Virus record (IMG/VR): IMGVR_UViG_3300044946_000428 | Location: 47,157 to 111,156 of that record | Direction: 5' to 3' (one strand) | From: a virus | Length of the DNA: 64,000 nucleotides | Shown: positions 3,222 to 56,781 of the stretch, piece by piece | Layout of the letters: each line of letters opens with the position of its first letter | Position numbering within the stretch: the first letter of the stretch is position 1 | The notes under the pieces: model-generated | Told to the model about the DNA's origin: nothing | Seen by the model: only the letters and a program-made list of their open reading frames with translations | The model's database searches: none | Program-made: the position numbers and the translations under genes

Positions 3222-3662
3222 GTGCCCGACTCGTTCTTCTCGGCCGCCCTGGAAGGGGATTCGTCGAAACTCGCCGGTCTCGATGTGACGGCCGAGATGG
3301 CCGCCTGGGCGAAGAAGTGGTCCTCGGTGGTCACGGGCGAACTGGCCGGCGCGGCCCCGGTGGGTCAGGGCGAGAACGCGGGCGCACTACGGGACTCGAT
3401 CGGCGCACCGGCGATCGAGGCCGGTGCGGGCCGGGTGTCGATGACGTGGACGTCGGACGCGCCGTACGCCGGGTTCGTGATCGCGGGTACGTCGCCGCAT
3501 CCGATCTACCCGAAGAACGTCAAGGCGCTGCACTGGGACGACGTGTTCGCCCTGCACGTCAACCATCCGGGCACGCAGCCGGATCCGTTCCCGCAGCGCG
3601 CGATCGATCACCTGTTGCCGGAACTGACCGCGTCGCTCGCGGCAATTTTCGAGGAGATGTAG
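3222..3662 (+). CDS. HK97 gp10-like tail completion protein
   Basis: 146 residues from GTG 3222, with GGAGG 6 bases upstream. The pattern of an N-terminal helix, a GALRDSI segment (about 55), a SDAPYAGFVIAGTSPHPIYP core (83-102) and a C-terminal PFPQRAIDHL helix is characteristic of the HK97 gp10 / minor tail completion family. These proteins sit at the head-tail interface. It lies immediately after the putative tail terminator. Confidence 0.75.
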   Translation: MPDSFFSAALEGDSSKLAGLDVTAEMAAWAKKWSSVVTGELAGAAPVGQGENAGALRDSIGAPAIEAGAGRVSMTWTSDAPYAGFVIAGTSPHPIYPKNVKALHWDDVFALHVNHPGTQPDPFPQRAIDHLLPELTASLAAIFEEM

Positions 3663-53336: not shown

Positions 53337-53589
53337 GGGCGCCCTGATCCTGCTCGTCGGCATCGTCGTCGGCCGGTTCATGCCGGGCCGGCGGCGCAAG
53401 CCGAAACCGCCCGCGCCGGTCAAGCCGATCTGCGGCTGCGGACACCATCGCAGCTTCCACGAGAACGGCGGCGCCTGCAAAGAACGGGTGTACGTCGGCT
53501 ACATCGAGGGCCATAAGCCGTGCACGTGCCGTCACTACGTCGGGCCTGAGCCGATGACCGAGCTGTACGCCCCCGAGATCGCGAGCTGA
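53329..53589 (+). CDS. Membrane-anchored zinc-binding protein
   Basis: 86 residues from ATG 53329. One N-terminal membrane helix (about 3-18), a basic/Pro linker, then C-G-C-G-H-H-R-S-F-H and C-T-C-R-H-Y, a Cys/His cluster for one or two zinc ions facing the cytoplasm. Confidence 0.65.
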   Translation: MLEGALILLVGIVVGRFMPGRRRKPKPPAPVKPICGCGHHRSFHENGGACKERVYVGYIEGHKPCTCRHYVGPEPMTELYAPEIAS

Positions 53590-53598
53590 AGGAGACTC

Positions 53599-54057
53599 AT
53601 GCCGTTCATTCACAACCGCACGCGGAAAGCCATCAAGCGCGACTACGAGGACGCCGCGCACGCGTTCGCGCTCTCCCCCATCCTGCTCGCCGCCCTGTTC
53701 CTCGTCGCGGCCCTGATCGCGGTCGGGATCTGGCTGTGGACCGCGTCGTCCGGCGCCCGCGGCAACGCGTCGGTGACCCGGCAGCACAACTCCGGGCAGA
53801 ACCAGGTCGCGCAGAACACGAAGCTGCTCGGCGACCAGGCCACCGTGCTCTCCGACCAGCAGAAGATCCAGTCCCTGGCCGGGGGTGTCGTGACCGAGCA
53901 GGACCGCATGGACCTGTCCGGGCTCGAGCTCAACTGCCAGTCCGACGTCGCCGCGTACAACGCCGACGTCCGCAACATCCTCGCCTCGGGCTACCTGCCC
54001 GCCGGCCTGCCCTCGTCGTACCCGGCGGCGGCGTGCGACGCCCCCACCTCGAAGTAG
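53599..54057 (+). CDS. Membrane protein with extracytoplasmic coiled coil
   Basis: 152 residues from ATG 53599, AAGGAG upstream. A basic N-terminus, a membrane helix (about 26-49) and a Gln/Asn-rich extracytoplasmic part (55-152) with two Cys that could pair. Directly followed by the lipoprotein gene, so the two may act together at the cell surface. Confidence 0.65.
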   Translation: MPFIHNRTRKAIKRDYEDAAHAFALSPILLAALFLVAALIAVGIWLWTASSGARGNASVTRQHNSGQNQVAQNTKLLGDQATVLSDQQKIQSLAGGVVTEQDRMDLSGLELNCQSDVAAYNADVRNILASGYLPAGLPSSYPAAACDAPTSK

Positions 54058-54064
54058 GAGAGTC

Positions 54065-54667
54065 ATGAAGAACCTCAAGTCCAGCCACCTGCGGCGTGTC
54101 CGTGTCGGCATCTCCAGCGGCGTCCTGGTCGTCGTGGCGGGCCTCGCGCTCGCCGCGTGCACCGGGAGCAGCGGCGGCTCGCAGTCCGCGGTCAACGCGT
54201 CCGACACGACGGCGCAGCAGGAGTACAACGAGTTCACTGCGGCGGTCCCGTACCCGTACGCGAACGCGGCGCCGTCGAACCCGCTGGAGCGGGAGAACCT
54301 GGCGAAGCGGCTCAAGGCCTATGACAGCTCCGGCGACACGAACTACATGTACATCATGACCTTCAGCGGCCAGGTGATCGGCTACTACGTCATCGACGGC
54401 AAGGTGTCGTCCACCGGCTCCGAGATGACGTCCACGCAGCAGGTCACGAACTGCGGCACCGGGAACAACGGCGGCGGCGGCGGTTGCTCCGTCACCGACG
54501 CGATCGGCGACGACGGGTCGTACGGCCCGGAGGAGGGCGGTTCGTTCGGCGTGTTCGCATTCACCTCGACTGGCGCTTTGATCGAAACCGACAGCCCGTT
54601 CCTCGTTTCCTCGCAGCCGATTGCCCTCTACGCCAAGGTTCCCCAACTCGACGCACCGGCCAATTAG
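54065..54667 (+). CDS. Phage-encoded lipoprotein
   Basis: 200 residues from ATG 54065, AGGAG upstream. A basic signal peptide ends in the lipobox L-A-A-C (Cys at about 32), followed by a Gly/Ser linker and a beta-rich domain (YMYIMTFSGQVIGYYVIDGK near 98-117). Lipoproteins of temperate phages often block superinfection. Its last 18 codons resemble those of the following HNH gene (see findings), so the 3' end was probably rebuilt when that gene inserted. Confidence 0.8.
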   Translation: MKNLKSSHLRRVRVGISSGVLVVVAGLALAACTGSSGGSQSAVNASDTTAQQEYNEFTAAVPYPYANAAPSNPLERENLAKRLKAYDSSGDTNYMYIMTFSGQVIGYYVIDGKVSSTGSEMTSTQQVTNCGTGNNGGGGGCSVTDAIGDDGSYGPEEGGSFGVFAFTSTGALIETDSPFLVSSQPIALYAKVPQLDAPAN

Positions 54668-54686
54668 CTTCGGGATTGGATTGACG

Positions 54687-55559
54687 ATGCCAGCGCACAG
54701 AACACTCAGCGCCGAGGCCGGACAGCGGTTCGGCCGGGGCACTGTCATCGACGCCGAGGTTGGTGTCGGCCGGTTGGGCCGACACCGCGGCGCCCGCCTC
54801 CGATGCGATTGCGGGAACGAATACACCGCAGCAATCAAGTATCTGCACAACGGCGACACCCAGTCGTGTGGTTGCCTGCGCATGGAGTTGTGCGCCGTCA
54901 AGGTCGAGGCCGGCGACGCCTACGAGCGCCTTACCTTCACGGGCAGTGCACACTACGAGAGGCGGTTCTGGGTTCTCGAGTGCACCTGCACCTGTGGGCG
55001 CAGCGTTGCCGTGCGGTCCGACCGGTGGGGCGTCACCAGCCGATGCTTTCTCTGCCTCGTGGCCTTTCGGTCTGCAAGGAACACGACGCACGGGCTCTCT
55101 CAAACCGGGGCCTACTCGTCGTGGTGGTCGATGATCGATCGCTGCACGAACCCGCGGGCCAGTGGCTGGGAGAACTATGGCGGACGCGGGATAGCCGTGT
55201 GCGACCGCTGGTTCGACGTCCGAAACTTCGTGGCCGACATGGGGTCGCGGCCCGAAGGCACGACGATCGACCGAATCGATAACGACAAGGGCTACTTTCC
55301 GGACAACTGCCGCTGGGCCACGCCTGCGCAGCAGGCCGCGAATCGGCGTGCGCCAAGGCGGAGCGGGATGTGTCGCAAGGGGCTGCATCCGATGATCCCA
55401 GAGAACCTCTATATCAACCCGACCTCCGGGGCAGCGACATGCAAGGCGTGCGCGAAGAAACGCGCGAGCGATCGGTACCTTCGGTTGAAGGAACGCTCGT
55501 CGGCGCCGGTCGAGCTCTACGCGAACGTTCCCCAGCTCGACGCACCGGCTTCAAAGTAG
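54687..55559 (+). CDS. HNH endonuclease with zinc ribbons, inserted homing gene
   Basis: 290 residues from ATG 54687. Zinc pairs C-D-C-G / C-G-C (about 33-55) and C-T-C-T-C-G (about 88-93) precede the HNH core at about 138-222: YSSWWSMIDRCTNP, ENYGGRGIAVCDRW, TIDRIDNDKGYFPDNCRWAT. A third zinc ribbon (C-x-K-G-L-H-P to C-K-A-C, about 232-264) follows. The last residues (ELYANVPQLDAPASK) are those of the upstream lipoprotein (ALYAKVPQLDAPAN), so this gene invaded the lipoprotein's 3' end. Confidence 0.9.
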   Translation: MPAHRTLSAEAGQRFGRGTVIDAEVGVGRLGRHRGARLRCDCGNEYTAAIKYLHNGDTQSCGCLRMELCAVKVEAGDAYERLTFTGSAHYERRFWVLECTCTCGRSVAVRSDRWGVTSRCFLCLVAFRSARNTTHGLSQTGAYSSWWSMIDRCTNPRASGWENYGGRGIAVCDRWFDVRNFVADMGSRPEGTTIDRIDNDKGYFPDNCRWATPAQQAANRRAPRRSGMCRKGLHPMIPENLYINPTSGAATCKACAKKRASDRYLRLKERSSAPVELYANVPQLDAPASK

Positions 55560-55576
55560 CGGCGCCTGAAAACGGT

Positions 55577-55608
55577 GCCGCCCCGGGCTGTCTGCGGACC
55601 GGGGCGGC
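55577..55608 (+). terminator. Stem-loop after the HNH gene
   Basis: Perfect 10-bp stem (GCCGCCCCGG, 55577-55586, with 55599-55608) and a 12-nt loop. No T tract. A second, weaker hairpin lies near 55648-55672. Together they probably end lipoprotein/HNH transcription. Confidence 0.55.
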
Positions 55609-55733
55609 GACCCGCGAGGAGTCAGCGGGTTCGGGGTGGCGGCCCGATCGGGGGAGTCCGGGCCGCCGGTTCCAGGGTAGCGAGTTCGCAGCGATTCCGA
55701 CGCGAAACCGGGGATCTGCGGTACACCTATGGC

Positions 55734-55988
55734 GTGGAGAACGAGCTGTCGCCGGACCTCGCGTGGAGCCTCGCCTCGGCCTACCTTGATCGGAAGAGTA
55801 TTCACACCGACCTCTGCCGGGCGACGGACGGATGCGGCGTCCCCACGCTGCTCACGGAACTTGTCGAGTTGCTCATCCCCGGGTTCGTCGAGTACGCGGA
55901 GCGGCACGGCCTCGAGGACAAGCCGTTCTGGGCGCCGGATCACCCGGAGGCGCTGGCGGGGCGTATGAAGGCCGGGACCGCGCCGTGA
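55734..55988 (+). CDS. Small acidic protein, unrecognised
   Basis: 84 residues from GTG 55734 (no strong ribosome binding site). NELSPDLAWSLASAYLDRKS at the start and CRATDGCGVPTLL in the middle; helical. Overlaps the next start by 4 bases. Confidence 0.55.
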   Translation: MENELSPDLAWSLASAYLDRKSIHTDLCRATDGCGVPTLLTELVELLIPGFVEYAERHGLEDKPFWAPDHPEALAGRMKAGTAP

Positions 55989-56185
55989 GCGTCTCCCCGG
56001 GCACGATCTGGCGCCCGACTGCGGGCCGGGCCGGCACGGTCGTGGTCCGCTCCGTGACGGGCACCGTGGCGACCGTGGTGCCGTGGCCTCAGCGGGGACG
56101 GCCGAAGCTGACGCCGCGCCGGGTGCCGCTCACCGCGAACGGCGCCGGGCTCGTCGGGTACACGGCGACCGGGCAGCGCGGGTAA
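55985..56185 (+). CDS. Small beta-rich protein
   Basis: 66 residues from GTG 55985. Val/Arg/Gly-rich (GTVVVRSVTGTVATVVPW), probably an SH3-like barrel. Last protein gene before the Y-RNA cluster. Confidence 0.55.
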   Translation: MSVSPGTIWRPTAGRAGTVVVRSVTGTVATVVPWPQRGRPKLTPRRVPLTANGAGLVGYTATGQRG

Positions 56186-56234
56186 CGCCCAAACGATTCG
56201 CACGTTGAGCCACGGATCGGCTACCGTGGCGTCA

Positions 56235-56308
56235 GGCCCGGGTGCGAATGGGATCGGCTACTTCTTTCTTGCAGAAATCACGCCGAACCCGACTCCGATC
56301 TCCGGGCC
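56235..56308 (+). ncRNA. Y RNA 1 (compact, no tRNA-like domain)
   Basis: Lower stem GGCCCGG (56235-56241) with CCGGGCC (56302-56308). Internal loop GTGCGAAT (5') against GACTCCGATCT (3'). Then a 3-bp helix GGG/CCC, an A-A mismatch, TCGGC/GCCGA, and an apical TTTCT-TGC-AGAAA hairpin. The same order of lower stem, asymmetric loop ending GATCT, 3-bp helix and mismatch recurs in the next three RNAs and corresponds to the Ro60-binding stem of Y RNAs. About 74 nt. A 7-bp hairpin at 56209-56230 lies just upstream. Ends are inferred from pairing. Confidence 0.65.
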
Positions 56309-56315
56309 GCAAGTT

Positions 56316-56459
56316 TGACCTCGCTGGGTGTGCAGGCAACGGTTCCTTCCTCCTGTTAAGAGGCTGATGTCGGTTCGAGTCCGGCCCAGACCTTCGGGTC
56401 CGGTAGCTCAATGGCAGAGCAGCTGTGCACCGTGGCCGTCTTGATCTCCGGCGGGGTCA
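56316..56459 (+). ncRNA. yrlA: Y RNA 2 with permuted tRNA-like domain (YrlA type)
   Basis: The 12-bp lower stem pairs TGACCTCGCTGG (56316-56327) with CCGGCGGGGTCA (56448-56459). Internal loop GTGTGCA against GTCTTGATCT; GGC/GCC, A-G mismatch, ACGGT/ACCGT. Inside lies a tRNA-like unit in permuted order: T arm GTCGG-TTCGAGT-CCGGC (56369-56385), acceptor 3' strand CCAGACC (56386-56392), TTCG tetraloop, acceptor 5' strand GGTCCGG (56397-56403, one C-A mismatch), TA, D arm GCTC-AATGGCA-GAGC. A hairpin with loop CTGTTAA (56349-56363) precedes the T arm. About 144 nt. Confidence 0.8.
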
Positions 56460-56485
56460 CTAGAGTTCGACAACTGAATACCGCA

Positions 56486-56586
56486 CCTCCCGGTGCGATG
56501 ACCGCCGTTACTTCGGTTCAGAGCTCTCCCATGGAGGGCTGCGGTTTCAACACCGCTACACGGCAGTCGCCCTTGATCTCGGGAGG
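56486..56586 (+). ncRNA. Y RNA 3 (stem-loops, no tRNA-like domain)
   Basis: Lower stem CCTCCCG (56486-56492) with CGGGAGG (56580-56586). Internal loop GTGCGAT against GCCCTTGATCT. GAC/GTC, C-A mismatch, GCCGT/ACGGC. The head contains hairpins AGCTCTCC-CAT-GGAGGGCT (56522-56540) and GCGGT-TTCAAC-ACCGC. The loop sequences match Y RNA 1 on the 5' side and Y RNAs 2 and 4 on the 3' side, which links all four. About 101 nt. Confidence 0.65.
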
Positions 56587-56596
56587 GACTGCATCG

Positions 56597-56744
56597 GGTC
56601 GCGCCCGGTGTGCAGGTAACGGGTACTTCCCTTTGGAGGACGTGGTCGCGGGTTCGAGTCCCGCTCGGCTGCCTACGTGCGGCCGGTAGCTCAGCGGATA
56701 GAGCGCGTATGTTCCCCGTCGCCGTCTTGATCTCGGGCGCGACC
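56597..56744 (+). ncRNA. yrlA: Y RNA 4 with permuted tRNA-like domain (YrlA type)
   Basis: Perfect 11-bp lower stem GGTCGCGCCCG (56597-56607) with CGGGCGCGACC (56734-56744). Internal loop GTGTGCA against GTCTTGATCT, identical to Y RNA 2. GGT/GCC, A-C mismatch, ACGGG/CCCGT. The tRNA-like part: T arm GCGGG-TTCGAGT-CCCGC (56648-56664), acceptor 3' strand TCGGCTG (56665-56671), loop, acceptor 5' strand CGGCCGG (56680-56686, all 7 pairs possible), TA, D arm GCTC-AGCGGATA-GAGC. It ends 37 bases before the Ro60 start and is probably on the same transcript. Confidence 0.82.
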
Positions 56745-56781
56745 GCTTGCCGCTCCTCCTTCCTTCTCGTGGGAGTTGAGC

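Follow-up and report, generated by a model that had tools for sequence, protein, structure and literature searches.

In the stretch of viral DNA analysed here (the window; 64,000 nucleotides that form part of the 111,156-base virus record IMGVR_UViG_3300044946_000428), a putative HNH homing gene very probably entered a lipoprotein gene some 20 codons ahead of the stop codon and brought a replacement end with it, and the native end appears to have become the tail of the HNH protein. The earlier note on this DNA had proposed that the HNH gene inserted into the lipoprotein gene and supplied it with a new 3′ end, and comparisons with relatives, sequence distances and codon use now support this proposal. 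A similar layout, with diverged duplicates of a host gene end on both sides of an HNH gene, has been found at several other phage loci.

A lipoprotein gene end on both sides of an HNH gene

The lipoprotein gene (54065–54667, + strand), identified as an ORF and through its relatives, encodes a protein of 200 aa with a signal peptide and an LAAC lipobox, both judged by eye. It lies behind a gene for a 152-aa membrane protein (53599–54057, + strand), which alignment with the relative L003 marks as its conserved upstream partner; the region 53589–54667 aligns with L003 at 75%. A 19-nt spacer (54668–54686, + strand) separates the lipoprotein stop codon from the HNH ORF (54687–55559), and the last 20 codons and the stop codon of this ORF are a second copy of the lipoprotein gene end. 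The lipoprotein ends in SSQPIALYAKVPQLDAPAN and the HNH ORF in SSAPVELYANVPQLDAPASK, each followed by a stop codon. The upstream copy (54608–54667, + strand) is the putative replacement end, as judged from the repeat and the distances to relatives, and the downstream copy (55497–55559, + strand), the in-frame tail of the HNH ORF with its stop codon, is the putative remnant of the native lipoprotein 3′ end.

A 35-base match with three differences between 54626–54660 and 55515–55549 had been reported before and is exact (32/35 bases identical); it forms part of an ungapped repeat of 53 nt (54608–54660 and 55497–55549) with 81% identity. Over the whole-codon span (54608–54661 and 55497–55550), 43/54 positions are identical. 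Hence, the duplication described in the earlier note is real, but its extent had been underestimated, the remnant covering about 20 codons (from 55497) and not 13. The local alignment of the sequences upstream and downstream of the HNH gene scores 14.4 SD above shuffled sequence, the next best of 84 HNH loci reaching 5.7, which rules out a chance repeat. The differences between the copies are unevenly spread: of the whole-codon span, the left 30 nt contain about 10 and the right 24 nt a single one, hinting at gene conversion or at a constraint on the DNA itself, for example an enzyme recognition site.

The body of the HNH gene (54687–55496, + strand) belongs to phrog_374 (PHROG E 7e-54), and the protein also matches other HNH families in PHROG. 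Translation starts at the ATG at 54687, the 312-aa ORF that begins at 54621 being simply an open frame. The protein body contains two CxCG/CGC zinc-ribbon-like motifs, an HNH core, the residues of which are conserved across homologues in an alignment, and a C-terminal zinc-ribbon-like tail. Pfam gives no match for the HNH protein, and no sequence match was obtained among solved structures. Neither IMG/VR nor 394 genomes of one bacterial class yielded a donor phage carrying this HNH gene, the best relatives being about 44% identical.

HNH-less relatives and the native gene end

Searches with the lipoprotein returned 22 viral loci and three loci in bacterial genomes, Actinospica and Streptomyces among them, and all 25 relatives have a single gene end without an adjacent HNH gene. 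The lipoprotein gene occurs as an occupied allele in the window and as empty alleles in these relatives. For eight relatives the complete genome or record was searched with the HNH protein of the window and gave no match, in a set without a positive control. In close relatives the lipoprotein ends in VPQLDAPAK, VPQLDAPAKK, VPQLDARAK or VPQLDK directly before the stop codon, with the final lysine of the downstream copy. The comparison with empty sites proposed in the earlier note, which hinged on the form of this end in HNH-less relatives, thus came out as that note predicted: they carry a single lipoprotein end of the downstream form. The HNH tail directly matches the lipoprotein ends of other phages over 18–20 residues (75–83%, E 3e-6 to 8e-6), and comparison with the lipoprotein ends of L042, L043, L046 and L044 gives 55–83% over 17–20 residues. 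These matches bear out the earlier claim that the original lipoprotein end is fused in frame to the HNH protein, and, together with the single-ended HNH-less relatives, they identify the HNH gene as the newcomer and its tail as a lipoprotein end.

Several lines of evidence indicate which of the two ends is foreign. Over 45 nt, the downstream and upstream copies differ from eight relatives at 7 v 9, 12 v 14, 9 v 15, 13 v 13, 12 v 12, 9 v 13, 18 v 18 and 14 v 14 positions, respectively, so that the downstream copy is equal or nearer in 8/8 relatives, by a small margin for single relatives. Codon use within the lipoprotein gene shifts at about position 54539, with A/T-ending codons making up 5/158 before and 11/42 after this point (permutation p 0.0003). 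The segment of foreign codon use defined by this AT3 shift (54539–54667, + strand) would comprise the imported 3′ end and a co-converted tract; its apparent start lies about 23 codons ahead of the duplication, in keeping with co-conversion. A comparable 3′ rise in AT3 is present in 0/37 other genes of the window, and relatives' lipoprotein genes keep a high GC3 up to the gene end. The sharing of synonymous codons with relatives drops in the segment from 54539 in 7/8 comparisons. In the downstream copy, codon use is normal for the phage (4/20 AT3, found in 17% of sequence windows), and the GC3 of the HNH gene is 0.80. The downstream stop codon is followed by a GC-rich stem, a candidate terminator (GCCGCCCCGG / CCGGGGCGGC; 55577–55608, + strand), and several relatives likewise have a GC-rich stem after the lipoprotein stop, as judged by eye. 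There is no such stop-then-stem context at the stop codon of the upstream copy, beyond which the HNH gene begins after 19 nt. Taken together, the distances to relatives, the codon use, the codon sharing and the stop-stem context suggest that the upstream end was imported and that the downstream end is the native one, now displaced.

A possible, though less probable, variant of the insertion model is that the whole block of HNH gene and both ends was imported by homing, the duplication having been born in another phage, so that neither end would be strictly native; its mechanism is not exclusive of the one proposed here. Homing normally copies flanks on both sides, and both copies in the window share GTT and GCA codons and are nearly identical in their right half, where they differ from each other (at 1 of 24 nt) less than either does from the relatives. 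Shared recent ancestry, gene conversion or a constraint at the level of the DNA may lie behind this likeness. However, import of the whole block does not fit well with a downstream copy that has normal codon use next to an unusual upstream segment and that retains the stop-then-stem context of the relatives.

The same layout at other HNH genes

A scan for DNA-level repeats at 84 HNH loci of the family detected the window only, and the further cases come from a translated scan. This wider scan covered 206 non-redundant HNH genes of the same family by translated comparison, followed by blastp of the open fragments lying up to 700 nt away on either side, and about 10 of these genes, including the one in the window, are abutted on both sides by diverged duplicates of a host gene end. 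With a threshold of E<1e-3 and abutment on both sides, there are 8/206 HNH genes (window included) vs 2/627 control genes (Fisher p 4e-4), the abutment counts of both sets having been tallied by hand from match coordinates. L164 (E 7e-3) and L092 (translated comparison only) were added by inspection, their stop or start being in register. The translated matches at L145, L107 and L077 were dropped as compositional or out of frame, as was the first match at L083, for which a different, real pair from blastp was kept; L078 was discarded as a match of HNH against HNH, and at L294 and L030 the matches do not adjoin the HNH gene.

The duplicated end is the 3′ end in L035 (a peptidase-like HExxH protein, by eye), L190 (phrog_7029), L080, L164 (DNA polymerase I, phrog_17) and L257 (endolysin-like, by eye, with the HNH gene antisense). 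In the mirror-image 5′ type, a short remnant lies ahead of the HNH gene and the full gene behind it, as in L113 (SSB, phrog_44), L083 (DnaE-type polymerase, phrog_405), L092 (helicase, phrog_62) and L189 (GMP reductase/IMP dehydrogenase-like, by its matches). The host genes hit thus include DNA polymerases, SSB, a helicase, a GMP reductase, an endolysin-like gene and genes for small proteins. The remnant of the forward 3′ types starts within 11 nt of the HNH stop, except in the window, where it is fused, and the distance from HNH stop to gene start is no more than about 10 nt in the 5′ types. In L257 (reverse strand, 2775–2861 and 3537–3623), the duplicated 3′ ends are 82% identical over 28 aa; orientation seems irrelevant, because the 3′ end is duplicated here even with an antisense HNH gene. 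The 5′-swapped GMP reductase/IMP dehydrogenase-like gene of L189 (3591–5693) also contains a long in-frame intein-like insert (CYSDDTEILTINGWK...), and two kinds of mobile element may therefore be present in this one gene.

Empty sites have been found for some of these loci. Pseudomonas phage vB_PsaM_M1 possesses an L190-type gene without the HNH insert, and its end, FEEKKEAADAVFDKYVELTGYNQ, matches the L190 remnant FEEKKEAASAVFKKYEELTQYND at 56/72 nt vs 51/72 for the in-phase end FEEKQDEANEVFKKYKELTDYDE. On these sequences, L190 is an independent replicate of the native affinity of the remnant. For L092, five helicase relatives have no such HNH gene in front and show a single start, M..YxEFLxxK or similar; HNH-less relatives of L035 and L257 were searched for and none was found. 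The L190 result bears on the view that the HNH gene of the window landed after the lipoprotein gene, with the downstream copy as a passenger fragment of a former host and the upstream end as the native one. Although this arrangement would give the same map and the margins for single relatives are small, it is unlikely, as it is the upstream end that bears foreign codon use, the relatives are overall nearer to the downstream copy, and the HNH-less phage matches the remnant of L190 better than the in-phase end.

The divergence of the two ends has a coding signature. The ten pairs, 224 codons in all, have 71, 50 and 133 differences at codon positions 1, 2 and 3, respectively, and protein identity is above neutral expectation in every one of them. 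As read from these sequences, the third-position excess is in line with divergence of the two ends within functional genes before they were joined rather than with a drifted duplication, a test that is partly biased, since all cases but the window were found by protein similarity. A target-site duplication, in which local sequence was doubled on insertion and the copies have since drifted, would account for a direct repeat on both flanks of the insert. It is nevertheless improbable: foreign codon use is present on one side only, protein identity in the window itself exceeds neutral expectation (14 vs 10.9, p 0.02), and at the other loci the copies share just 49–76% of their DNA sequence, but reading frame, stop or start and similarity of the protein are preserved, with the third-position bias. 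That the HNH gene lies within a group I intron or an intein, which often house HNH enzymes, is rejected with near certainty, as the lipoprotein reaches its own stop codon ahead of the HNH gene, splicing does not explain two copies of one end, and an Rfam scan of 53500–60500 gave no intron, only tRNA and YrlA matches.

The YrlA (bacterial Y RNA-like) matches are two sub-threshold hits at 56365–56420 and 56619–56728 (+ strand), directly 5′ of a TROVE/Ro60-like gene (56776–58446, + strand; Pfam E 1e-14). Diverged repeats at the two matches suggest, at the level of sequence, a duplicated tRNA-like Y RNA unit, which ARAGORN predicts as a tRNA-Gln at 56602–56673.

A model for gene-end replacement by homing

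In the model favoured here, insertion of the HNH gene with a replacement end, the mobile unit would consist of the HNH ORF and a spare version of the end of the host gene itself. The free-standing HNH enzyme would nick or cut an empty gene end, and recombinational repair from an occupied copy would move the HNH gene together with the replacement end, accompanied by co-conversion of about 20 codons upstream. The replacement end would be joined in frame to the body of the native gene, and the host gene would stay whole, surviving because the imported copy restores its end. The displaced native end would be left on the far side as scrap, in the window forming the final 20 codons and stop codon of the HNH ORF, and the diverged replacement end would presumably resist the enzyme.

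The closest known counterparts are the mORFs of fungal mitochondria (Allomyces, Glomus), in which the C-termini of atp6, atp9, cox2 and nad3 are duplicated [PMC3630166]. The inserted end is in phase with the gene, the native C-terminus lies downstream and is closer to ORF-less relatives, and the two copies have diverged [PMC3630166]. The window shares with the mORFs an endonuclease ORF near the 3′ end of a gene that carries a foreign C-terminal segment in phase [PMC3630166]. Its duplicated gene end flanks the endonuclease ORF on both sides, with one copy in phase with the gene body, and the displaced end is the one nearer to ORF-less relatives (equal or closer in 8/8 in the window, by small margins, and 56/72 vs 51/72 in L190). 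However, the mitochondrial enzymes are of the LAGLIDADG or GIY-YIG type, whereas those of the phages are HNH enzymes; the element in the window thus appears to work like an mORF, yet outside those endonuclease families. Also, in contrast to mORFs, the phage cassettes occur as the 5′ mirror image and once in antisense, and may have their remnant fused to the enzyme.

Among phages, the free-standing HNH homing endonucleases mobA–E of T4-like phages [PMC2988022] are similar in that an intron-less HNH gene lies beside or inside conserved phage genes and is present or absent between relatives [PMC2988022]. The gene in the window is likewise outside any intron or intein, the host gene stopping before the HNH gene. 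The insertions of Aeh1 mobE and T4 mobA split their host genes [PMC2988022, PMC5009743], whereas in the window the replacement end leaves the host gene intact. In the ShiLan type, an HNH insert lies within a phage methylase gene, also without intron or intein [PMC11855218], but there the host frame reads through the insert, while in the window the host gene terminates in the copy of its end that the insert carries. Gene-end replacement is not mentioned in the accessible parts of three recent publications (a phage HEG survey of 2023, a Skunavirus HNH survey of 2025 and a hidden-HNH paper of 2025), and a literature search, with subscription papers largely outside it, found no phage report of end-swapping homing genes.

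Phage free-standing homing genes have so far been described between genes or splitting genes. We consider it likely that widespread phage HNH homing cassettes insert at conserved gene ends, 3′ or 5′ and in either orientation, each supplying a diverged replacement end by which the gene remains functional and the site probably becomes resistant, and that homing is a general maker of chimeric gene ends. Such a self-repairing cassette, a phage counterpart to the fungal mitochondrial mORFs, would explain how conserved coding sequence can be targeted without killing the gene and why short gene-end fragments lie beside HNH genes, as well as how chimeric polymerase and SSB ends may form.
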